DNA of 64,000 nt from Pseudophaeobacter leonis. GTDB taxonomy: Bacteria; Pseudomonadota; Alphaproteobacteria; Rhodobacterales; Rhodobacteraceae. Below are positions 1,951-45,449 of this stretch, one piece after another. Each line of letters opens with the position of its first letter. Within the stretch, counting starts at the first letter, position 1. The stretch covers positions 1-64,000 of the forward strand of contig NZ_MWVJ01000060.1 of the NCBI RefSeq assembly GCF_002087335.1, in the 5' to 3' direction. The notes below the pieces were generated by a model. It had not been told where the DNA came from and made no database searches. It worked only from the letters and a program-made list of their open reading frames with translations. A program made the position numbers and the translations under genes.

Positions 1951-1995
1951 CCAAACGCGTCAGAGCACAGAATTCCGCACAGTCTCAGCTGTTGC

Positions 1996-2773
1996 AGGAA
2001 CCTGCGATCAAATCACCTTCCCAGTGCCCTGGTACAGCGCGATCTTCTACCTCCGCAGGCCGCTCACAGATCGAAACATCATCGTTGAACTTCCCCAAAC
2101 CGCTCCGCTTCAACGTGGCATGACGTGACCGCCTGATGGACCGTGTGGCATGTAAATGCGCCTGGAGTTCTTTCTTTAGGACGCCCCGCGTCTGAATGAA
2201 AAGGCTCCGGTAGATCGTCCCCCTCTCGGGACATTGCTGTGCAATGCCCTGCCGGTCAGTGCATGCGAGATACGTTTGTCTTCCTCATCAGGATGTTCGC
2301 GCATGAGCCAACCTGCAATTTGTTGCGGGGACCACTTGCGATGCAGCTTGGTGGATATCATGCGGCAAAGATAGTCGTTGCCGACTAGCTTACAGGGCTT
2401 TGGACGGTGCGCTCGATCCCAGGCCTTCGCGTCGGAACCTGGCTGCACGGTAATGTTTGGTGCCGCCATTGCGGCGAACTTCACGGCTGATAGTTGAGGG
2501 TGCCCGGTGAAGGTTGCGCGCAATGGACCTCAGCGACTGCTTAGCTACAAGGCCCCGTGATATCTCTTCCCGCTCACCGAGTGTCAGCGCCAACCGAGAC
2601 CGCGCCCGGGCTATTGGTCTGATGCCACCAGTGCGCTCAAGTACTGGATAGATAGACGAAGATCCGCGATCAAACACACGTCCAATCGAGCTCATCGACT
2701 CTCCGCGCTGCCACCGACCCCATATCTCCGCCTTCTGCTTCTCTGAGAAAAATATCCGCTTCCGATAGGCCAT
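1996..2773 (-). pseudogene. IS30-family transposase, frameshifted, interrupted and 3' truncated
   Basis: The gene starts at 2773 with MAYRKRIFFSEKQKAEIWGR and an IS30-type HTH (SIARNLHRAPSTISREVRRN). It shifts frame near 2440-2460 and resumes as LHRKWSPQQIAGWLMREHP up to RISH. There a 41-bp hairpin element (2221-2261) interrupts the conserved HETIYRSL motif. Downstream the frame resumes as TIYRSLFIQTRGVLKKELQ and ends at VPGHWEGDLIAGS, which contains the first catalytic Asp of the DDE core. The remainder of the catalytic domain is missing at the junction with IS256 sequence. Bases 2801-2833 (CTAAAGTGTTGCGTCCATCC onward) look like the outer IS30 end. Non-functional. Confidence 0.8.
2221..2261 (-). 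repeat. Two-hairpin GAGAGGG element, copy A (inside IS30 transposase)
   Basis: Read on the minus strand this 41-bp segment begins CACTGACCGGCAG, contains the stem GGGCATTGC / GCAATGTCCC (one bulged T) around an ACA loop, and ends GAGAGGG. It sits between codons for RISH and TIYR of the IS30 transposase, where family members read continuously, so it is an insertion. Three related copies occur at 7771, 7846 and 10921. The stem bases differ from copy B by paired changes that keep the pairing, and the bulged T is shared. Confidence 0.75.
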
Positions 2774-3078
2774 GAGTTACACTCCATCTTTCCAAAAAGA
2801 CTAAAGTGTTGCGTCCATCCGTTGAAACCGCCGGACGAAACGAGCCGAATTCTCGCTGCGCGCTCTCGCAGCAGCACGATTTTTGCTGCATCAGCGCGGA
2901 CTCGAGTATTTCGATACGGCGCAAAAAACCGGCCATTCACATAGAACGCAGAGAGAATAGGGCGTAGGATCAGGTAGCGGGCTATCCCGCTGTTCAGATG
3001 GCAGAAACGGAGGTCTGCTCCGCTACGCTTTGTAGGCTTTCAGAGCCTAGCCACAAACATTTTCACGGCGGGATGTAG

Positions 3079-3850
3079 ATGAACGTTATTGTACTTGGAG
3101 TTTTGGGTAGTCTCGCCGCTGGCCTGATGACCGCGATCGGAGCGTTGCCAATTCTGATTGGCAAAACTGTTTCGCGCAAACTGAACGACAGTTTGCTCGG
3201 GTTTGCGGCTGGTGTTATGCTCTCCGCCTCATACTTCTCGCTTATCATTCCGGGACTGGAAATTTCTGAGGAACAATATGGTGCGGGAGCAATCCCGGCA
3301 CTGATTGCAGTTGGTGGAATCATCCTTGGTGCCGCATCCATCTACTTATTGGATGAAAGAGTGCCGCACCGGCACTTTACCAAAGGCCTTGAAGGTCCAG
3401 AGGCCGTCTCTGTTCGAAAGATCTGGCTTTGTAATCGCGATCACGCTGCACAACATTCCCGAAGGCCTTGCCGTCGGCGTTGGTTTCGGAGGCGGCGACA
3501 TTGCTGCGGCGATATCTCTCGCGGTCGGTATTGGGTTGCAGAACGCGCCGGAGGGTCTGGCAGTCGCGCTGGCACTTCAGTCCGAAGGATACTCAAAAAA
3601 CTACGCTTTCCTCGTCGCTGCCGCGACAGGACTGGTCGAGCCGGTGGCAGGCTTGGCCGGAGTTGTTGCGGTGAGTGCCTCCCAACTTCTCTTGCCATGG
3701 GGGCTGACCTTTGCAGCAGGTGCGATGCTCTACGTGATCAGCAATGAAATAATCCCCGAAACACATCGGCACGGCCACCACAAGGGTGCCACAGCAGGCC
3801 TGATCGTGGGTGTGGTGGTCATGATGTTTCTGGACGTCGTGTTTGGCTGA
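3079..3850 (+). pseudogene. ZIP-family metal transporter, frameshifted
   Basis: The product resembles ZIP (zinc/divalent cation, ZupT-like) inner-membrane importers. It starts MNVIVLGVLGSLAAGLMTAI with several hydrophobic segments, then shifts from the first to the second frame at about 3431 in GGCTTTGTAATC. After the shift the signature motifs ITLHNIPEGLAVGVGFGGG and GIGLQNAPEGLAVALAL appear; their His, Asn and Glu residues form the binuclear metal site in ZIP proteins. Restoring a TTT codon at the run of three Ts would give one protein of about 257 residues. The neighbouring convergent gene is also a ZIP with one indel, so these lesions may be sequence errors. Confidence 0.82.
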
Positions 3851-3907
3851 ACATGCTTTTATCAGTGCCTTGGGCTCGCTAACTGGGAAGCCATTCGAAC
3901 GAGGTGC

Positions 3908-4644
3908 TCAATGAGCCCCCATTGTTATCCCTAGTGCCGTCGCAATCCCCCCACCCAACACGATCAGTGAGAATTTGCGCGGTTCACGTTCGGCCATTGG
4001 AAGCAAATGCGTAGCCCCGACATAAAACAGCGCTCCTGCAGAGCCTGCCATCAAGTTGCCCAAGAACGGTTTATCTATGTTACTGATCCAACCATAGGAC
4101 ATAAGTGTTCCAAGGGGCGTAGTTGCAGCTGCCGACACAAGGGCAAGAACGAGTGCCTTCCTGTCGCCAAAGCCGCTGCGCAGCAAGAGGACATAGGTGA
4201 TGATGCCTTCGGGAAATTCATGCAGCACCATGCCGAGTGTGGACACAACACCAGTGAAAAAGCTGACAGTGATGTGACGGAGTACATCACGCCGTCAACG
4301 AAAGAGTGGAACCCGATCCCGAACATGGCAACCAGGCCAATGGCATAGTCCGCTGTGGTTGGTTTGTCGCAAACCTGTGTTGTCAGAAACCGGTTCATAA
4401 AATGCATCACGAGGTAGCCGGTCAGCATGAAGACAGGGCCCTGGGGGCTCAACTCAAGGCTTGTTGGCATCAGATGTAGGAAAGACACGGCGATCAAGAC
4501 GCCCGCGGCGAAACAGGCAAAATAGACGGCATTTCGGCGCCCCCAATCGCTGAAGCGCCGTACAGTCAGGACCCCAATGGTTGTTACGAGACCGGCAAGC
4601 AGGCTTGCCCACACTGCAAAAGGGATGACTGGTGAAACGACCAA
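3908..4644 (-). pseudogene. Second ZIP-family metal transporter, frameshifted
   Basis: A distinct ZIP-type membrane protein read leftwards from 4644 (MVVSPVIPFAVWASLLAGLV). It contains the first metal motif as FGIGFHSFVDGVMYSVT and, after a frameshift near 4270, the second as LGMVLHEFPEGIITYVLLLRS. Adding one T in ACATCACTG would restore the usual VTFTVSF reading and one protein of about 245 residues with eight hydrophobic segments. It faces the upstream ZIP gene tail to tail and is not closely similar to it, so this is not a local duplication. Substrate (zinc, iron or manganese) cannot be told from sequence. Confidence 0.8.
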
Positions 4645-4648
4645 GTCC

Positions 4649-4963
4649 TCAGGTCTTTCGGTTGGTGCGCCTCAGCGCCTCACGAGACAAGCCGCCCTGC
4701 TTGGTGGGGGGTGTTTCACTTGTATCTATATCGCCAACAAGCATATGCAGGGCCTGCAGTATCTGCTTCAACACCTCACCATTTCGCGCTGGCATGCCTT
4801 CGTCTTCGGCGACACTGACCTCACAGGCATCATACTCCCATCGCCGCAGGATCTCGATCCTTTGCGATGTCGTAAGGCTTTCATCGGTCAAAACGTCCTC
4901 AGGCATATCGAATATGGACGGCGGATCAAGAATGGCTTTGGCAAGGCGCTTTTCGTCCATCAT
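4649..4963 (-). CDS. Conserved hypothetical protein, 104 aa
   Basis: A small soluble acidic protein beginning MMDEKRLAKAILDPPSIFDM. It contains a conserved-looking stretch, DESLTTSQRIEILRRWEYDA, that I associate with small alphaproteobacterial proteins of unknown function; I cannot assign a domain. Its start overlaps the stop of the upstream gene (4960) in an ATGA arrangement, so the two are translationally coupled. It lies immediately downstream of and in the same direction as the second ZIP gene, so 5175 to 3908 may be one transcript. No signal peptide or membrane segment is seen. Confidence 0.7.
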   Translation of the reverse strand: MMDEKRLAKAILDPPSIFDMPEDVLTDESLTTSQRIEILRRWEYDACEVSVAEDEGMPARNGEVLKQILQALHMLVGDIDTSETPPTKQGGLSREALRRTNRKT

Positions 4964-5175
4964 GCGTTCCTTGCGCTGAGTATTGTCAGCACCTCTTTCG
5001 TCGGCCCTGTGAGCACGCGTTCACCTTGGCCAGCAATATCGCTGGTACCATCCGCCAACGACTTGGCCTCGGCGATATCTGCCAGACTCGCGCCCGTCGC
5101 TTCAATCGCGGCAAAATCGTTGTCGTCCAGAACCCCAAGCATGTCCTCGGCAGCTGCCCGTGTAACGTGGCTCAT
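4960..5175 (-). CDS. Small conserved hypothetical protein, 71 aa
   Basis: A 71-residue acidic, helical-looking protein (MSHVTRAAAEDMLGVLDDND) with no cysteines or hydrophobic segments. The start is well supported by an AGGAGATATTC Shine-Dalgarno stretch directly before the ATG. It overlaps the next gene by four bases, so the two products are probably made in similar amounts and may interact. No function can be read from the sequence. The coupling to a metal-transporter gene downstream is the only clue. Confidence 0.7.
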   Translation of the reverse strand: MSHVTRAAAEDMLGVLDDNDFAAIEATGASLADIAEAKSLADGTSDIAGQGERVLTGPTKEVLTILSARNA

Positions 5176-5367
5176 TGAATATCTCCTCTACTTCAAGCCA
5201 GGTTCCATCTCTGGCTTCCGCCTGTCATGGACAACCTGAATTTTCGATCTCTGAGTTATGGTAGGGCACGGCGGGGCGTCGCCCCTTGATGTATCTCAAT
5301 GCATTCGCCTTTCAATTGCATATCATGACATAAAAAATCGATAGCCACGAATGGAATGGAGACCGAA

Positions 5368-5952
5368 ATGGCCGAAGCAGAACCCAAGTCGGACGACAGC
5401 AAGACCACCTATATCAATACTCCAGAAGCGGTCGGCGTTTTTTATACATTCGAAGCGCAACAGGCCGCATTTTACGATCTGCGTTCGGTAGGGTTTCATC
5501 ATTCCGACATCAGCCTTCTCGGTAGCGATGAGGCTCTGCAAGAGAAACTTGGCAAGGCCTATTGGCGCGCGTCCGACCTTGAGGACGATCCGAAAGCGCC
5601 CAGGGCTCATTTCGTATCCGAAGAAGCGATCGGCGAACTTGAAGGGGCCATCACAGGTGGGTTTTTCTTTGTGGGGTCGGCCATCGCAATGACGGCGATG
5701 CTAACGCCTGCGAGTACCCTGGCGGCCTCCATTGCGGCCGTCGCCATCGGCGGCAGTCCCGCCGCCGTCATCGGCACACTTTTGGCGCGACGCGTTGGAA
5801 AGCATCATAAGGAATACTATGAAAATCAAATTCGACACGGCGGTATCCTGATGTGGGTCAGAACGCGGGACAAGGAAAGGGAGGCCCTCGCCGTGAAGAT
5901 CATGAAGGGCCATTCCGGGCGCGATGTGCACCTGCATGGCTGGAGCGAGTGA
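5368..5952 (+). CDS. Membrane-associated conserved protein with a central hydrophobic hairpin
   Basis: About 194 residues. An N-terminal domain of roughly 100 residues starts with a segment like the general-stress-protein-17M/YflT fold (VGVFYTFEAQQAAFYDLRSV). A central glycine- and alanine-rich hydrophobic pair of helices follows (FFFVGSAIAMTAMLTPAS and AASIAAVAIGGSPAAVIG), then a basic, histidine-containing tail. Such proteins are often stress related, but function is unknown and this assignment is tentative. The ATG at 5368 is preferred over 5356 because GGAG lies seven bases before it. It stands alone between divergent small genes and the metallo-hydrolase. Confidence 0.65.
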   Translation: MAEAEPKSDDSKTTYINTPEAVGVFYTFEAQQAAFYDLRSVGFHHSDISLLGSDEALQEKLGKAYWRASDLEDDPKAPRAHFVSEEAIGELEGAITGGFFFVGSAIAMTAMLTPASTLAASIAAVAIGGSPAAVIGTLLARRVGKHHKEYYENQIRHGGILMWVRTRDKEREALAVKIMKGHSGRDVHLHGWSE

Positions 5953-6113
5953 AGGTGGCGCGGGAGCCCGACACCGAGACCAGTTTCCCCAAAGCATATG
6001 CTCCTGACCACAACTCACCAATTCCAGCTGCATCATCATGCGTGCCAATCCGCAGTGGTGACTGTCTGTAGAGCAATCGGCTGAAAGCAACTATCTTAGA
6101 AAGACGCACAAAA

Positions 6114-7049
6114 ATGCAATTTTTTCCCAGTTCGACCGAAACCGGCAGTCCGAATGTCGCTGCATTCTACGAAAAGACGACCGGTTCCTGGCAATACGTG
6201 GCATGGTGCCCGGCAACCAGGGCTGCTGTCATCATCGATCCAGTGCTCGACTTTGATCCGGCTGCCGGTGCGACCTGGACAGCGAGTGCAGACGAGATCC
6301 TGCACTACGTGACGTCCGAGGGGCTCGAAGTAGAAGGGGTGCTCGACACGCATCCGCACGCCGATCATTTCTCATCAGCGGCTTATCTCAAGGAAAAACT
6401 TGGTGGGGTACCCAAACAGGCAATCGGCGAACTGGTAATGAAGGTGCAGGAAATCTGGTCGGATTTCTACGCCGATGACAGTCTGAACGGCCGTGACGAC
6501 TACTGGGACCGCCTGTTTAAGGCGGGTGATACTTTTAAAGTCGGCAAGTGCGACGTGGAGGTATCGCTTTCGACCGGTCACACCCTGGCTTCCATCACAT
6601 ACAAGATTGGCGATGCGGTTTTTGCCCATGACACCTTCATGGCCCCCGATAGCGGAACATCGCGTGCGGATTTTCCTGGTGGTTCCTCGTCTGAACTATG
6701 GGACAGCCTGCAGGCAATCCTCGCACTGCCCGGCCAGATCCGCGTTTTCGTTGGCCACGATTATTGCAAGGGCGGCCGGGCCGAGGCCTGCATGGCAACC
6801 GTTGCGGAGCACAAGGCGTCCAACATTCACGTCAAGGACGGTACTACAAAGGAAGAGTTCATTTCCATACGGGATGCGCGCGATGCTACGCTGCCTCTTC
6901 CCGGTCAAATGCTTTATGCGCTGCAGATCAACATTCGCGGCGGGCGCCTTCCCGAACCCGACCCTCAGGGCCGCGCCGTGCTGCGTGTGCCACTTAATCG
7001 TTTTGCTTCGAAGATTGCATCGAACTTCGAGCATTCGGCCAGAGAATAG
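6114..7049 (+). CDS. MBL-fold metallo-hydrolase, persulfide-dioxygenase (ETHE1/Blh) like
   Basis: A 311-residue metallo-beta-lactamase-fold protein. Metal-ligand motifs in order are DTHPHADHF (H-x-H-x-D-H), STGHTLASI, AHDTFMAPDSGTSRADFPGG and VFVGHDYC. This arrangement and the DSGTSRADFPGGS stretch are typical of ETHE1/Blh-type persulfide dioxygenases, single-iron enzymes that oxidise glutathione persulfide to sulfite. That activity would complement the sulfide dehydrogenase at the window start. The C-terminal 70 residues (PLPGQMLYALQINIRGGRLP) are also typical of Blh-like proteins. No signal peptide is seen, so it should act in the cytoplasm. A glyoxalase II-type thioesterase is the alternative. 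Confidence 0.82.
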   Translation: MQFFPSSTETGSPNVAAFYEKTTGSWQYVAWCPATRAAVIIDPVLDFDPAAGATWTASADEILHYVTSEGLEVEGVLDTHPHADHFSSAAYLKEKLGGVPKQAIGELVMKVQEIWSDFYADDSLNGRDDYWDRLFKAGDTFKVGKCDVEVSLSTGHTLASITYKIGDAVFAHDTFMAPDSGTSRADFPGGSSSELWDSLQAILALPGQIRVFVGHDYCKGGRAEACMATVAEHKASNIHVKDGTTKEEFISIRDARDATLPLPGQMLYALQINIRGGRLPEPDPQGRAVLRVPLNRFASKIASNFEHSARE

Positions 7050-7149
7050 GTAAGCGGGTAGGTCGGGCGGTGGCCTATATCACATTGATATTGTCGAAAT
7101 CTGCTCTCCATCATCGTGTTCGTAAATCAAAGTAAGAAAGTTTTCTGAA

Positions 7150-7632
7150 ATGCCAGATAATGAAACAATGAAATACCTCCAAAAAGCCTTGCACATGGAG
7201 CTCACGGCAGCACATCAATATCAGCTGCATGCCCATGTGCTCGATAATTGGGGGCTGGACAAACTGGCCGCCCAAATGCGGTCGGAAATGCAAGAGGAGC
7301 TGGGTCATTCTGATCTTTATATAGCGAGAATTATGTTCTTTAACGGCAATCCCGATTTGAAATTCTACAAAAAGCCTGTCCAGGCGGATAACCTCGTTAG
7401 CATGTTTAAATCTGATTTGGCCGACGAATTGGAAGCAATCGAGTTTTATACCGCCGCCGCCCAGCACGCAATGAAGACGGGTGATATCGGATCTCGGACG
7501 CTCTTTGAGCAGATCGCACTTGACGAAGAGGGGCACAAAGGTTGGCTTGAGCTCCAGCTCAGTTTGATTGAGCGGCTCGGTGAAAAGGCGTTCAGTGCGA
7601 AATACGTTTCCGGAGTGGCTTCAGAAGAATAG
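7150..7632 (+). CDS. bfr: Bacterioferritin-type ferritin lacking the heme-ligand methionine
   Basis: A 160-residue four-helix ferritin-like protein of bacterioferritin length. Diiron ferroxidase ligands are visible: Glu17, Tyr24, Glu49 and His52 in EELGHSD, a Glu in ADELEAIEFY, and Glu and His in LDEEGHKGW. In heme-binding bacterioferritins the residue after the Glu of E-M-K-H is Met52, which ligates heme at the subunit interface; here it is Leu50 (E-L-G-H). The protein should therefore store and oxidise iron without heme, or pair with a heme-binding subunit encoded elsewhere. No bacterioferritin-associated ferredoxin gene is adjacent. Confidence 0.87.
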   Translation: MPDNETMKYLQKALHMELTAAHQYQLHAHVLDNWGLDKLAAQMRSEMQEELGHSDLYIARIMFFNGNPDLKFYKKPVQADNLVSMFKSDLADELEAIEFYTAAAQHAMKTGDIGSRTLFEQIALDEEGHKGWLELQLSLIERLGEKAFSAKYVSGVASEE

Positions 7633-7770
7633 TTGGTCTGAACAATGATCCCCGTATACGCGACCGTTATTCCCATTATCGCTGCCTTCAATGACCTGTG
7701 TGGATAGCGCCTGCATAGCAAGACATTTTTGAAGAAGATTTAGCACTGGTCAGAAGCAGCGGTGTGTTCC

Positions 7771-7811
7771 CACTGCCCGGCAGGCGATTGCGCAGCAATC
7801 TGCCGAGAGGG
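7771..7811 (+). repeat. Two-hairpin GAGAGGG element, copy B
   Basis: 41 bp beginning CACTGCCCGGCAG, with the stem GGCGATTGC / GCAATCTGCC (one bulged T) around a GCA loop, ending GAGAGGG. Same length and bulge position as copy A, with swapped base pairs at the third and fourth stem positions. It forms a tail-to-tail pair with copy C, like the paired units of REP/BIME sequences. Confidence 0.75.
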
Positions 7812-7845
7812 GCCTGTTTGCGCGGCGCACGCGGCCGCTGGCCCT

Positions 7846-7882
7846 CCCTCTCAGCGATGCAAGAATCGCCTGCCGGGCTGTG
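7846..7882 (-). repeat. Two-hairpin GAGAGGG element, copy C
   Basis: On the minus strand: CACAGCCCGGCAG, then stem GCGAT / ATCGC with loop TCTTGC, then TGAGAGGG; 37 bp. It is inverted relative to copy B, with a 34-bp spacer between their GAGAGGG ends. Confidence 0.7.
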
Positions 7883-8024
7883 GATGGTTTCCGCAGGCAA
7901 AGTCCCAAACCGCTTCTCGGACAAGTGATGTCCCTGACATTGGACGGGGTGTCTTGGGAGACTGGCTGACTGTGCTCCATCATTTCAATGGTCATGCTGT
8001 CTCTGGTGTTCTGTTGTCCTCATA

Positions 8025-8450
8025 TTACGCCGCGTTGGGCCGGTAATGCTGGTTCTTGGTCAGAACTGCCCAAATGATCCGGGCTGTTTTGTTTGCCATT
8101 GCCACAGTGGCAAGACGGGTTGGCTTGCGCTCAAGCAGAGCCCGCGCCCACGGATCAACGCGCTCCGGATGTGTTTTCACCTGCCTCAGTCGCGAGGTCA
8201 TGCCAGTGACCAGCAGCCGTATGATATATCGGCCGCCCATCTTGGAGATACGGCCCAGCCTTTCCTTGCCACCACTTGATCGATTGAGTGGGGTTAGACC
8301 CAACCAGGCTGCAAATTCGCGGCCGTTCTTGAACTGGCGGGCACCACCTGCTGTTGCGACAATTGCGGACGCGGCCACGGGGCCGACACCCGGAATCGGC
8401 CGAAGTAGCATCACGCGAGGATCCTGCTTGGCTTGGACCTGACAGACCTT
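8025..8450 (-). pseudogene. IS110-family transposase, C-terminal fragment
   Basis: Roughly 140 residues containing the transposase-20 (IS116/IS110/IS902) domain: MLLRPIPGVGPVAASAIVAT, FAAWLGLTPLNRSSGGKERL and ISKMGGRYIIRLLVTGM, ending AVLTKNQHYRPNAA. The N-terminal DEDD catalytic half is absent, so the gene cannot be active. The reading frame upstream of VQAKQDP is not family sequence. It may be the missing C-terminal end of the IS110-type fragment at 1314-1557, now on the other strand, with about 100 middle residues lost. Confidence 0.8.
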
Positions 8451-8701
8451 GCGCGAATGCACCGATAGGAAGCAAAACAATGACCACGCTACGGTCGCAA
8501 CATCAACGCGGAGGGTGCTCCCGGTCCGTTGTTCATAGAAGTGGACAATTCCAAAGGGTGGGTCGTGGCTCAGAACCGACCTATTCCCTCCAATTTTAGC
8601 TTTAAGGATTAGTTAAATAATTTACCCGATCCTCCAAAGGAGTCTGTGCGTTCGGGCTGCCTACGATGAAGTTTCCACCGCTGAATATATGGAACAAGAG
8701 T

Positions 8702-9094
8702 ATGGCCTACACGAAATCCAAAGATCCGCGCCCAAAGTGCCTGATCGTCGAAGATGACGAGTTTGATCGGTTGATGATGTTTCGAACTGCAAAAACTGCA
8801 ATAAACAACTTTGTCATCACGGCAGTGACCTCTTTGGAGGCTGCCCGACAGGTGCTCATGGCAGGACCGGCTTCCCTTATTCTGCTGGACAACTCCTTGC
8901 CTGATGGCAAGGGTTCCGACTTTGCTTTGGGACTGGCGCAGTCACCAAGCTTGGCTGAGACCCCGATCATCATTGTTTCTGATTGGCCCTCTCCTTTCAT
9001 GTGGGACAAGGCCAGTGCCGCGGGTGTCAGACGTGTTGTGACAAAGTCGGACCTCAATCCCAACCTGATCTGTGAGATATTGAGGGCTTCTTGA
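8702..9094 (+). CDS. CheY-like single-domain response regulator
   Basis: About 130 residues forming one receiver domain: acidic pocket LIVEDDEFDRL, phospho-acceptor Asp in LILLDNSLPDG, the conserved Ser in IIIVSDW and Lys in VVTKSD. There is no output domain, so it should signal by protein contact. The ATG at 8702 is preferred over 8666 because GGAACAAGAGT precedes it. A soluble histidine kinase follows 186 bp downstream in the same direction and is the likely partner. Confidence 0.85.
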   Translation: MAYTKSKDPRPKCLIVEDDEFDRLMMFRTAKTAINNFVITAVTSLEAARQVLMAGPASLILLDNSLPDGKGSDFALGLAQSPSLAETPIIIVSDWPSPFMWDKASAAGVRRVVTKSDLNPNLICEILRAS

Positions 9095-9280
9095 AGGCCA
9101 AATGGCGCAACTCTCTTGGGCGCCACGAGGCGTAGCGATGGCAGTGCTGAGGAGAACAACCTGAACCGGCTTGACGAGGATGGACGGCGCACTGCTCAAT
9201 AATATCTGGCAAAATTTCATCTCGGAGTTTTTCCGACCACTCAGAAACCTCTCCGCCTGTCAGAACAAGGGTCTCAATCT

Positions 9281-10096
9281 ATGTTACGTGCAGCCATGGG
9301 TACCTCGACTGAATGCAAGAACTGTACCACGCCCGAAGCGGTGAATATGATTACCCACAGAATTGGGCATGATCTGCGCGCGCCCCTTCGCGCTCTGAAA
9401 ATCCTCCCGGAGTGGATTTCTGAAGAGTTTGAGAGCGCAGAAACTGATATTCCCCCAAAGGCCCAACAGTTTCTGGAGATGATCACAAGCAAAGCCGTCC
9501 AAATGGAAGGATTGTTGGCAGGGCTTCTGGAATACGCACTGGTCGCGGACCCGGAGGCGACGGTAAGTTGCGTCGACATTCCTGCAGAGATCGATGAAGT
9601 GGCCCGTAGATATCTCGCCAATGGTGCATATGAGATCGAAGTTGCCCCGGAATTGTCAACCTTAGTGTTAATCCGCGAAGATCTTTCTGCTATCTTCAAG
9701 CACTTGATATCAAACGCTGTTTTGCACAACGATCAATGCGATTCATATGACCGCGTGACAGGTCGGCTACACGACGCAACGGCGATCTTTTGTGTGGAAG
9801 ACAATGGGCCCGGCATCGAAAGGGAATTTCACCAACGCATCTTCGAACCCTTTGCAATACTGAAACCCCGGGATGAGGCCAGAGGTAGCGGGTTGGGATT
9901 GGCAGTTGCCCAAAAAATTGCCGGCTGTTGGGGTGGCCGCATCACTGTAAGGTCTGAATTGGCAAAGGGGTCTCGTTTTCAGTTCGAATTTCCGGTTGAG
10001 GCTTGCGAATTAGCATCAGAAGAACTCGTGCCTGCCGAGATCCAATGCAAGGGGCTGGTGCTTTGGGCAAACACTCAGGAGAGGCACCCCGAATGA
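9281..10096 (+). CDS. Soluble sensor histidine kinase
   Basis: A 271-residue histidine kinase with no membrane segment and almost no sensor region. The H-box is RIGHDLRAPLRALKILP (about residue 29 onward), followed by the N-box ISNAVLHN, G1 box VEDNGPGI, F-box RIFEPF and G2 box RGSGLGLAVAQKIA. The ATPase domain is complete. With so short an N-terminus it probably senses through a partner or is controlled by the receiver protein just upstream (8702). A CTNCTTPE-like cysteine pair near the start (ECKNCTTP) could be redox- or metal-sensitive; that is speculation. The last 30 residues (ELVPAEIQCKGLVLW) are not part of the kinase fold. Confidence 0.85.
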   Translation: MLRAAMGTSTECKNCTTPEAVNMITHRIGHDLRAPLRALKILPEWISEEFESAETDIPPKAQQFLEMITSKAVQMEGLLAGLLEYALVADPEATVSCVDIPAEIDEVARRYLANGAYEIEVAPELSTLVLIREDLSAIFKHLISNAVLHNDQCDSYDRVTGRLHDATAIFCVEDNGPGIEREFHQRIFEPFAILKPRDEARGSGLGLAVAQKIAGCWGGRITVRSELAKGSRFQFEFPVEACELASEELVPAEIQCKGLVLWANTQERHPE

Positions 10097-10425
10097 AGTA
10101 GTCCTTTCCTATGTTTGGGAAAGCGATTGCCCAATAGGTCAGCATCGGTCCACTGGCGGCCTTTGCCTGAAGGGTGATCAATGAACTTCCTTTTGAAAAT
10201 ATGTCTGCCTTGAAAACGCCCCCTCCAGCTCGAACGGCTCAACAGCTTGGCTCGTCCGTTGCTTAGGTTCAAGCATCCGCCGCAGAGACCCGTTTGATCC
10301 GCTCGAAGCCTGAAACTGGGACCGAACGCCGCGTCGGCATGACGGGCAGCTTCGGGCTTATTCTGTTGAAAAAATCGCGGTTTTCGCGGCACTGCATCAC
10401 AGGATGAATGGCTTCCGCCTCGATT

Positions 10426-11853
10426 TCACAGGACTGTTCTGGCCTGACCAGGGTTTGGAGCCAATTTGGCTAACTTTTTGAGGTTCTGGGCGGTTGCGGC
10501 GAGGATAAATTCGTCATGAGCGCCACATGGTCCACGTAATCTGAGCCGACCTAAGCCGTGAATGCGTTTTAGATGGGCGAATGACATTTCGACTTTTTTG
10601 CGCAGCTTGCATGAGATGGCATATTGCTGGGTTTGCGATAAAGCGCGTGCGACATTGCGAGAGGCCTCATAGATGGATTGCGTAACTTTACGCTGTGGCG
10701 ATTTGGGACAACAACCTTCTTTTAGATCGCACAAATCGCAGTCGGCTTTAGGGGCTCGGTAACGAATTGTCTCATCTTTGTTTGCGCCAGTTGTTCCTGT
10801 TTTATATGCACGTAGCGGCTTTCTCAGCTCTTTGCCACCGGGGCAAATATAAAGATCATTGTCGGCATCATATGTGAAGTCAGCACGTTCAAACGTGCCA
10901 TCCTTTCGGCCAGGTTTATCCCCTCTCATGCATTTTCAATGCATTGCCGGGCAATGAATGACAGGAATATGCGGTGCGATCCCACGCTTCTCAACAAGCC
11001 ACTCCAACATTGGGCCGGATCCATACGCCGTATCTGCAATCAGGCGCTCGGGCTTCAAGTCATGTACCGTTTTCACACGATCAATCATGGTTTTGACGGC
11101 ATCCACCTCAGCTTGACGGACAGACCGCGTAGGTTCCACATCAAGGATGACTGCGTTGTCTGTATCGATCAAATAGTTCGTGGAATACGCAAAAAATGCA
11201 GACCCACCACGTGCTCCCGTCCACTGCGATGCTGGATCTGCATGTGAGATGAACTTTGGAACCACGGGGCTGGCGGCCCCAAACGCTGCATCATCAAGTG
11301 TTTCCAAATACTCGCGAACCGCGCGCGGAGCATCATCTGGATTGATAGCCTCAGGGTTCCAATCAGCCTTCGGCGTGGAGTGTTGGCGATTGGCATCGGC
11401 GGCAATAATACTTGCGCCTGCAGCGTATCGCTGCCCGCTTGCGAGACCTGCATCGATGCATTGCGCTACAACGTTTTCAAACACATGCCGGAGTAAATCA
11501 CTATCGCGGAAGCGACCATGCCGGTTCTTGGAAAACGTCGGATGATCAGGAATAGCATCTGTCAAATCCAGCTTGTAAAACCAACGATACGCCAGATTGA
11601 GGTGAACCTCATCACACCAGCGCCGTTTAGCACCAATGCCCATGATATAGCCAACCAACAACATGCGCATCATCAGCTCAGGGTCAATCGAAGGACGCCC
11701 GGTTGAGCTATAAAATTTGGCCAAATGCCGACGCACGCCAGACAAGTTAATGATGCCATCAATAGCCCGCAGGACATGGTCGGACGGGCTATGATCCTCT
11801 ATCGAAAAGTCATAAAACAGCGCGCTTTGTGCTTCTTGCCTCGGCCCCAACAT
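10426..11853 (-). pseudogene. IS1182-family transposase interrupted by a 36-bp hairpin insertion with an in-frame stop
   Basis: The N-terminal part (MLGPRQEAQSALFYDFSIED) carries the DUF772-type region (RPSIDPELMMRMLLVGYIMG) and the catalytic core, with LIADTAYGSG as a DDE motif. It reads into IPVIHCPAMH and stops at a TGA. After the stop the same frame continues as RGDKPGRKDGTFERADF and runs to the normal C-terminus (KVEMSFAHLKRIHGLGRLRL). Removing bases 10921-10956 (36 bp, 12 codons) rejoins IPVI to DKPGRKDG, the expected family sequence. The gene is therefore broken only by the small element. An earlier in-frame ATG at 11874 is possible. Confidence 0.88.
10921..10956 (-). repeat. Two-hairpin GAGAGGG element, copy D (inside IS1182 transposase)
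   Basis: 36 bp, minus strand: perfect palindrome CATTGCCCGGCAATG, then perfect stem ATGCATT / AATGCAT with loop GAA (the two hairpins share bases), then GAGAGGG. It lies exactly between the IPVI and DKPG codons of the transposase. Its length is a multiple of three, so the frame is kept, but it brings one TGA codon. Confidence 0.85.
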
Positions 11854-12026
11854 CGCTCCAGCCTCCCATATCAATAAGGAAATTGAATCAGTCAGATATC
11901 CCTAAATCAACAAGAGTTTTTCAACAGAATAGGCTGGGACCGGTCATTGGTATAGAGCTTTCTCAAGCAAGAAAAAAGCAAAGTGATCGCCCCGGCCAGC
12001 ACGAAGCCAGCCGAGGGTGTTGCTAT

Positions 12027-43938: not shown

Positions 43939-45449
43939 ATGCTAGAGGGTCTTCTTATTGGTCTGCAAACGGCCATGTCATTCCAAAACCTTGCGATGGT
44001 CATTGCGGGGTGCCTCATTGGTACGTTCATCGGCATGTTGCCGGGGCTTGGCCCAATGTCGATCATCGCGATCATGATCCCCATCGCGATCTCAATGGGC
44101 GACCCCTCTGCTGCTTTGATCCTGCTTGCAGGGGTCTATTACGGGGCCATCTTTGGCGGCTCCACGTCGTCAATTCTGCTGAATGCGCCCGGTGTTGCAG
44201 GCACGGTAGCCTCCAGTTTTGATGGCTACCCCATGGCGCAGCAGGGCAGGGCAGGTAAGGCGCTGACCATCGCTGCCGTCTGCAGTTTTGCCGGGGGCAC
44301 AATTGGGGCGATCCTGTTGATGATTTTTGCGCCGATGCTGTCGTCTGTCGCCCTGCTGTTTCATTCTGCCGAGTATTTTGCGCTGATGGTGGTCGGGCTT
44401 TCAGCCATCGCGGCCTTCGCGGGCACCGGCCAGGTCGCCAAGGCGATGATCATGACCGTGTTTGGCCTGATTTTGGCCACGGTCGGCGAAGGCGCTCTGT
44501 TCAGTCTGCCACGCTTTACCGGGGGGGTCATGGACCTGCAGTCGGGCTTTGGCTTTATCACCCTGGCCATGGCCATGTTCGCCCTGCCCGAAGCCTTGTT
44601 CCTGGTGCTCAAACCTAAAGACGCGGGCAGCGTTGAAGCTGACATCACGGACCTGCGCATCACGCGGGTCGAGGCCCGTTCCATTGCGCCAATCATCGGA
44701 CGTCAGTCTGTCCAGGGTTTCTTTATTGGGGTTTTGCCCGGTGCCGGCGCGACGATTGCCAGCTTTCTGGGCTATGCCGTTGAACGCAATCTGGCGACAA
44801 AAGAAGAGCAGGCCGAGTTCGGCAAAGGCTCAATCACAGGCCTCGCAGCTCCCGAGACCGCAAACAACGCCGCCTGCACTGGCTCCTTTGTGCCGCTGTT
44901 GACGCTGGGCATCCCCGGCTCCGGCACCACAGCGCTCCTGCTGGGGGCTCTCGTGGCCCAAACGTCTCGCCTGGGCCACGGCTGATGATTGACGAGCCGC
45001 AGATTTTCTGGGCTGTGATCATGTCGATGTTCATTGGCAATCTGGTCCTGCTGATTTTGAACCTGCCCCTGATTCCCTATATCGCCAAAGTCCTGTCGAT
45101 CCCGCGCAACTATCTGATCCCGTTCATTTTGTTCTTTACCTTGATGGGGGCCTACATTGGTCAGAACAATGCAACGGAATTGCTTATCCTTGTGGGATTT
45201 GGCGTCTGTGCGACAGCTTTGAAATTCGCAGACTACCCTTTGGCCCCTCTGTTGATCGGGTTCATTCTGGGTGGCATGCTCGAGAACAACTTTGCGCGTT
45301 CGATGCAACTTTACGACGGTGTTTCGTTCATCTGGGAGCGGCCTATGACGCTTGGTCTGCTGGTGATCGCTGCGATCCTGATCCTCCTGCCCAGCTACCG
45401 GGCAAGGCGGGCGCGGGCGCGTGCTGAGGGGGTTGCTGATGGTGACTAA
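43939..45449 (+). pseudogene. tctA: Tripartite tricarboxylate transporter large membrane protein TctA, frameshifted
   Basis: Starts MLEGLLIGLQTAMSFQNLAM after GGAGGTTGAT. GCLIGTFIGMLPGLGPMSII and YGAIFGGSTSSILLNAPGVA are TctA hallmarks in the N-terminal repeat; AAPETANNAACTGSFVPLLT and LGIPGSGTTALLLGALVA mark the second. The frame is lost at about 44959 in GCCCAAACG. One extra base gives NVSPGPRLMIDEPQIFWAVI and continues to the stop at 45449. The intact protein would be about 503 residues with 11-12 membrane segments. A single lesion in a conserved operon suggests a sequence error. Confidence 0.87.

Follow-up and report, generated by a model that had tools for sequence, protein, structure and literature searches.

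A folded strand, a fixed foot, a short flanking target, and the absence of target duplication recur among the repetitive extragenic palindromic (REP) sequences and the insertion sequence (IS) IS608, as described in two sources (PMC6006769, PMC8266576). In a third (PMC3733652), GTAG REPs are defined by an unpaired GTAG-type tetranucleotide at the foot of the hairpin, and CGTC REPs by a CGTC, TGTC, or CCTC tag, a CCA tail, AT as the first two pairs, and a loop of 4-5 nt. That source reports that the CGTC repeats are apparently without a dedicated transposase and that REPs occur inside other palindromes. The present study concerns a short hairpin element noticed at four places in a 64,000-nt stretch of Pseudophaeobacter leonis DNA (contig NZ_MWVJ01000060.1, positions 1 to 64,000; hereafter the window). 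The evidence indicates a real, family-wide, structure-selected mobile hairpin. On balance, it is probably a REP-type, non-autonomous unit of the single-strand type that is nested mostly in insertion sequences of the Rhodobacteraceae and moved in trans.

Comparison with known systems

Like the REPs and the REP doublets forming hairpins (REPINs) that are moved by REP-associated tyrosine transposases (RAYTs), the element is a short hairpin with a fixed foot, compensated variation in the stem, inverted pairs, and no transposase of its own. Unlike them, it has no foot of the GTAG or GGAG type: in the alignments of both main length classes, the stem was flanked by GGCA on the plus strand and TCTC on the minus strand, and GTAG was not present. 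It also differs in that the strain's own genome has no RAYT, and in that its copies are few in each genome and usually lie within IS instead of extragenically, with one genome (G159) excepted in location. With the CGTC REPs of Alphaproteobacteria (Di Nocera et al. 2013, PMC3733652), the element shares an alphaproteobacterial host, stems of 8-9 bp, inverted dimers, and the lack of a reported dedicated transposase. However, the CGTC, TGTC, or CCTC tag, the CCA tail, and the AT pairs are missing, and the loops of the main classes are 2-3 nt long instead of 4-5. By the features tested, the element is outside both the GTAG and the CGTC superfamilies.

It might still represent a subfamily of either that has yet to be described, moved by a RAYT that was lost from most of these genomes. 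Such a subfamily would fit the similar size and stem length, the inverted pairs, the alphaproteobacterial host, and the precedent of CGTC REPs reported without a dedicated transposase (PMC3733652). It is nevertheless improbable, given feet of GGCA and GAGAGGG (TCTC on the other strand), the different tail and first two pairs, the few copies and their location mostly inside IS, and the rarity of Y1 genes in the family. Since CGTC REPs apparently lack a dedicated transposase and REPs are reported inside other palindromes, both the missing enzyme and the nesting in repeats have parallels.

The ends of the IS200/IS605 family, as exemplified by IS608, are similar in their subterminal hairpin, in a short target by the left end, and in the absence of target duplication. 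Additionally, the unpaired T17 of the IS608 hairpins, as given in PMC8266576, recalls the extrahelical T of one class of the element. In contrast to IS200/IS605, neither tnpA nor tnpB is present, one hairpin makes up the whole unit, and the target consists of about five bases plus G and is not TTAC. From these comparisons, the element would appear to work like a REP sequence or like one end of IS608. Miniature inverted-repeat transposable elements are likewise non-autonomous and multi-copy, but the element has no target duplication and no recognized terminal inverted repeats of a known IS. A literature search returned no title or abstract opening that describes the element, with subscription papers outside its coverage.

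Anatomy of the element and its copies in the window

The initial annotation had described four copies of the element, at the places and on the strands listed below, and a direct search bore this out. The pattern CCGGCAN{4,30}GAGAGGG had exactly four matches in the window, compared with a mean of 0.15 in shuffled sequences, where none of 100 shuffles reached four. In the whole genome of the strain the pattern had 20 matches, as opposed to five for a reversed control, and by reading a hairpin was recognized in 16 of the 20 and none in the other four.

2221..2261, minus strand: copy A (41-nt class), within an IS30-family transposase gene
7771..7811, plus strand: copy B (41-nt class), in non-coding DNA adjoining an IS110-family gene fragment, with an element-free homologue in locus L294
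7846..7882, minus strand: copy C (37-nt class), inverted relative to copy B and with a different stem
10921..10956, minus strand: copy D (36 nt), within an IS1182-family transposase gene
1988..2773, minus strand: IS30-family transposase gene split by copy A (frames scanned 2390-2773, 2263-2529, and 1988-2218)
8028..8480, minus strand: IS110-family transposase fragment near copies B and C (NF033542, 3.6e-40)
10429..11874, minus strand: IS1182-family transposase gene split by copy D (NF033551 on both flanks)

The unit begins with CRYTGCCCGGCA on the 5' side and ends with GAGAGGG on the 3' side, and these feet are fixed, while the stem between them varies freely yet stays paired. It is preceded by YC[A/G]T[C/T] and followed by G, and target duplication is absent. 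Among 216 distinct sequences the length ranged from 34 to 45 nt. The 37-nt main class has eight pairs and a 2-nt loop; the 41-nt main class has nine pairs, a 3-nt loop, and one extrahelical base, which is T in 51 of 58 sequences. Copies A and B, as originally described, differ by a swap of the third and fourth pairs and have the bulged T in common. The copies had been called two-hairpin elements, but each consists of a single hairpin whose feet include an outer CCC and GGG, predicted to pair across an internal loop. This outer pairing is without covariation support because both strands are nearly invariant.

That copies A and D interrupt transposase genes agreed with family matches (one flank of A, both flanks of D) and with the open frames obtained when the flanks were joined flush. 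The flanks of copy D covered positions 2-341 and 348-488 of the IS1182 transposase profile NF033551 and gave a single open frame of 479 codons. For copy A, the right flank (frame 1988-2218) matched the IS30 profile NF033563 (5.8e-14), the two scanned left-flank frames had no NCBIfam match, and the joined frame had 167 codons. Copies B and C lie outside the IS110-family fragment, inverted relative to each other and with different stems. In the Sulfitobacter plasmid homologue L294, annotated there as IS110, the site of copy B is empty. Three other loci (L012, L210, and L278) carry DNA related to the region of copy C with other stems at the same site.

An IS256-family transposase fragment (NF033543, 3.7e-27) was also found at 1546-1947 on the plus strand, and remains of at least four IS families lie within the initial 12 kb of the window. 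A scan of the window with Rfam 15 gave no covariance-model match over the copies at the gathering score, and among 10 loci scanned with E up to 5 the sole match over an element was isrB, at E 0.5 and below the cut-off. The window also contains a match to Cis8_sRNA (Ruegeria cis8 sRNA) at 44973-45100 on the minus strand (90.1 bits, E 8e-15).

Conservation of the stem as pairing

Covariation was assessed in gap-free alignments with one sequence per distinct stem, comprising 38 sequences of the 37-nt class and 58 of the 41-nt class. The share of stem cells that were paired was 97.4% in the former and 94.8% in the latter, compared with 72.8% and 69.8% in shuffles, although the observed percentages were raised by the filter of at least six predicted pairs with which stems were collected. 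Cells changed on both sides numbered 69 and 106, respectively, compared with 25.4 and 30.6. For both measures, none of 500 shuffles reached the observed values, and sliding the partners by 1-3 columns gave values far below them. The stem is thus conserved as pairing and not as sequence, and its structure is selected, as had been proposed from the compensated pairs of copies A and B. Against this, six pairs in the 37-nt class had a double change, a count reached by 229 of 500 shuffles and not unusual. Mutual information between target and element bases had its strongest signals inside the target or inside the stem, and was weak across the border.

Insertion junctions and target sequence

An element-free homologue with the same flanks was found for 87 of 183 insertion sites, in a comparison that did not accept differences of more than 12 bases. 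The junctions were flush at 61 of these sites, one base beside the element was missing at 15, one extra base was present at seven, and the remaining four differed otherwise (two extra bases at two of them). The one-base losses may reflect ambiguity at the last G. Since the junctions are mostly flush, the unit was inserted whole and without target duplication, and its exact ends agree with the earlier claim of insertion as a discrete block. Both further copies and transposase homologues without the segment exist, the opposite of what the initial annotation had named as evidence against its reading.

Among 95 unique sites derived from 152 copies, the flanks showed a preference for YC[A/G]T[C/T] before the unit and G after it, with T at -2 in 59, C at -1 in 62, and G at +1 in 67. 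The target motif is a preference and not a rule. Solitary halves were found in 405 loci as 27 five-prime and four three-prime cases, and they are mostly decayed whole copies or chance. In the same loci no gene flanked by a pair of halves was seen, and no systematic test was made. At L145:4574, L211:2952, and L259:9347, the unit retains its 5' half and breaks off within the stem, as though the hairpin were the point of truncation.

The conserved structure, together with several interrupted genes that are otherwise open once the unit is removed, could also suit an element acting at the RNA level, such as a very small intron or a hairpin that translation skips, whose broken genes would still work. 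Gene orientation was called by cross-homology at 66 of the 95 sites, longest-open-frame calls being unreliable in GC-rich DNA. It was the same as that of the element in 26 and opposite in 40, with 29 of 95 not callable. Splicing or translational bypass was rejected on this mixed orientation, because such an element would need one orientation. Moreover, the lengths of 34-45 nt include many that shift the frame, and some copies are in non-coding DNA, which makes an RNA-level element very improbable.

Nesting in insertion sequences

A homologous flank in another locus was found for 121 of 181 testable sites. At control positions on the same contigs, each at a distance of more than 2.5 kb, the count was 11 of 214. 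Because many loci were chosen for carrying the element, this difference points to flanks that are shared and repeated and does not by itself identify them as IS. None of 60 separate control positions in the window had a homologous flank. Flanks were also matched to protein families in a random draw of 72 of 206 sites, from which 130 of 134 flank frames were submitted; the omitted frames came from L182, an archaeal chance match, and from one of the two sites in L142. Among the families listed (the first 25 of 36 and of 48), nearly all were transposases, with 13 members of IS3, seven of IS5, four of IS1182, three of IS21, two each of IS66, IS982, IS256, and IS30, and one of IS110, where models overlap. 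The non-transposase families listed were ornithine cyclodeaminase, RecF, RelE, and the ACT domain.

Transposases also predominated at the 60 sites without a homologous flank, for which 98 of 118 frames were submitted. Among the families listed there (25 of 33 and 25 of 26) were IS3 (11), IS5_3 (6), IS66 (4), ISNCY, IS21, IS1182, and IS630 (3 each), IS982, IS4, and IS30 (2 each), and IS91 and IS256 (1 each), the others listed being RecF and RelE. No exact fraction of sites in IS is given, because the tallies count frames and many frames match nothing. Judging from these matches, most classified insertions lie within insertion sequences of more than 10 families, and the distinct insertion sites in these families number more than 200. 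Two other approaches were less informative: codon-usage frame choice was too weak for IS genes, and annotated plasmid stretches, used as a transposase library, held too few families. The density of the target motif was 6.63/kb in element flanks vs. 6.88/kb in controls, and GC was 58.3% vs. 58.7%; neither accounts for the nesting. The preference for IS DNA, like the target motif and the one-hairpin anatomy, had been missed by the initial annotation.

Same-site flank clusters numbered 217, of which 24 hold at least two stems. Sixteen of the 24 were inspected, where one was a stemless chance pair and one was only loosely similar. For example, three unrelated stems occupy a single site in IS110-type DNA (L012, L210, and L278), and two transposase sites hold five stems each, some of them interrelated. 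Multiple stems per site were read as probable repeated insertion at the same base; stem exchange by recombination would be an alternative. The element-bearing IS are themselves multi-copy, as seen in six copies of one stem in genome G024 and five copies of another in G008. Four of the six same-stem copies in G024 carry a second element in the opposite orientation.

Silencing by the host, with hairpins set in transposase genes as a weapon or brake, might explain why unrelated IS families account for most classified sites. It is nonetheless quite improbable, considering that interrupted IS persist in several identical copies, that some copies occupy non-coding IS DNA, the space between genes in G159, or viral contigs, and that no guide or gene for such a function was found.

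Copies between genes in one genome

In G159, copies of the element were intergenic, and the open frames on either side converge for at least two of them. They sit in a repeat of the form TTCATCTTGCNAAATAAACTC...CCGCC^GGAGGC, and repeated DNA is thus the setting of the element in this genome as well. Allowing one mismatch at most, TTCATCTTGCNAAATAAACTC had 36 matches in G159 and none in G000, G118, or G018. Across 30 of the G159 repeat loci (L375-L404), the element was present in nine and a remnant in one, and the stems found at this one position were of at least three types. The motif stands without the element in, for instance, L375, L401, and L403. A larger unit made of TTCATCTTGCNAAATAAACTC and the hairpin was rejected, as some of the 30 loci are without the element, and the motif was read as a target repeat. 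The motif in G159 is often followed by a small GC palindrome, and one exact match was found in a viral-collection contig (L372:8440-8460).

These copies bear on whether insertion is directed to IS at all. The element could instead land anywhere in a few enzyme-holding donor lineages, and the IS-borne copies, once multiplied and transferred, would predominate elsewhere. This is a serious possibility that falls somewhat short of even, and it would accommodate the multi-copy IS, an enzyme not visible in most genomes, the repeated intergenic motif of G159, and the equal density of target motifs in IS and control DNA. On the other hand, the number of distinct sites and of IS families, along with the same sites holding unrelated stems, suggest many insertions in IS themselves, and no donor genome rich in non-IS copies turned up in the part of the family searched. 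A tentative and rather doubtful proposal is that the element is a hyperparasite of transposons, in which an enzyme other than the known Y1 and Y2 would pick the DNA of more than 10 IS families as its landing place and read a five-base target together with the shape of the hairpin, not its sequence.

Spread across genomes

The family survey covered one genome per genus at a completeness of at least 90% (n = 246). By the exact pattern, the element was found in 66 of the 246 genomes, with 1-29 matches per positive genome and the maximum of 29 in G018, and the reversed pattern had no match in these genomes among the matches listed. A looser pattern, applied to 100 genomes including that of the strain, was positive in 30, comprising 28 of 60 in the family and two of 40 outside; its reversed control gave 11 matches in nine of the 100. 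A search of other genomes had been suggested with the initial annotation, and the element is present across the family.

A scan of GTDB, which is not a census and for which 80 of 118 stretches were listed, included among the matches listed Ruegeria, Sulfitobacter, Puniceibacterium, Sagittula, Salipiger, Tritonibacter, Jannaschia, and others. Matches listed in distant phyla were mostly stemless. Copies also occur in viral-collection contigs, and among the GTDB and viral matches listed, 138 of 183 had at least six pairs and 45 had fewer. A few of the matches that pass this cut are chance. Three IMG/VR contigs (L249, L268, and L273) have similar flanks ending in cgatatcc with three different stems.

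The moving enzyme and the proposed mechanism

A plausible mechanism would begin with one strand folding into the hairpin with its fixed feet. The feet and the shape of the hairpin would be recognized by a single-strand nuclease or transposase acting in trans, most likely an HUH enzyme, which would cut just outside the unit. The unit would then be joined between YC[A/G]T[C/T] on its 5' side and G on its 3' side, with no copy made of the target, and insertion sequences harboring copies of the unit would carry and multiply them. The assignment of the moving enzyme to the HUH kind is a guess from the form of the insertions.

Several results weigh against this account, in addition to the stem filter noted above. 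The bulge of the 41-nt class is absent from the 37-nt class. Neither an autonomous version nor an act of excision or insertion was observed. The initial annotation had suggested looking for a RAYT or other Y1 transposase gene alongside the element, and such a link was not supported: PF01797 (Y1/RAYT) had no match in the strain's own genome (assembly 92% complete) and was absent from 10 of 12 element-rich genomes, being present in the other two. In total, it was found in 16 of 100 genomes, including five of 60 in the family (own included). Similarly, PF04986 (Y2) was absent from the own genome and present in eight of 60. A Y1 link is favored by G018, which, with 30 copies, the most of the first 100 genomes, has a Y1 gene, and by G005, which is also rich and has a fragment. 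Y1 and Y2 transposases were both rejected as the mobilizer, as their presence does not track the element.

Homologues of one IS200 TnpA were found in 27 of 295 genomes. Among 30 TnpA loci, a 7-bp stem followed by GAGAGGG lies beside the tnpA gene in one (G018, L285:2081-2105) and not in the others, and one locus holds a complete element separately. The surroundings of these homologues do not share the ends of the element, except possibly in G018, whose stem was taken as chance or a one-off because the other homologues lack it.

Implications

With this element, the REP-like mobile hairpins gain a family whose fold and feet are fixed and whose stem sequence is nearly free. Its dozens of natural compensatory variants are potential ready substrates for finding the enzyme. 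The nesting in many IS families raises the testable question of why IS DNA is the usual home of an element of the single-strand type. If the element were a hyperparasite of transposons, it would both ride on and break insertion sequences across a whole bacterial family. For the Rhodobacteraceae, it offers a single common cause for many broken transposase genes.

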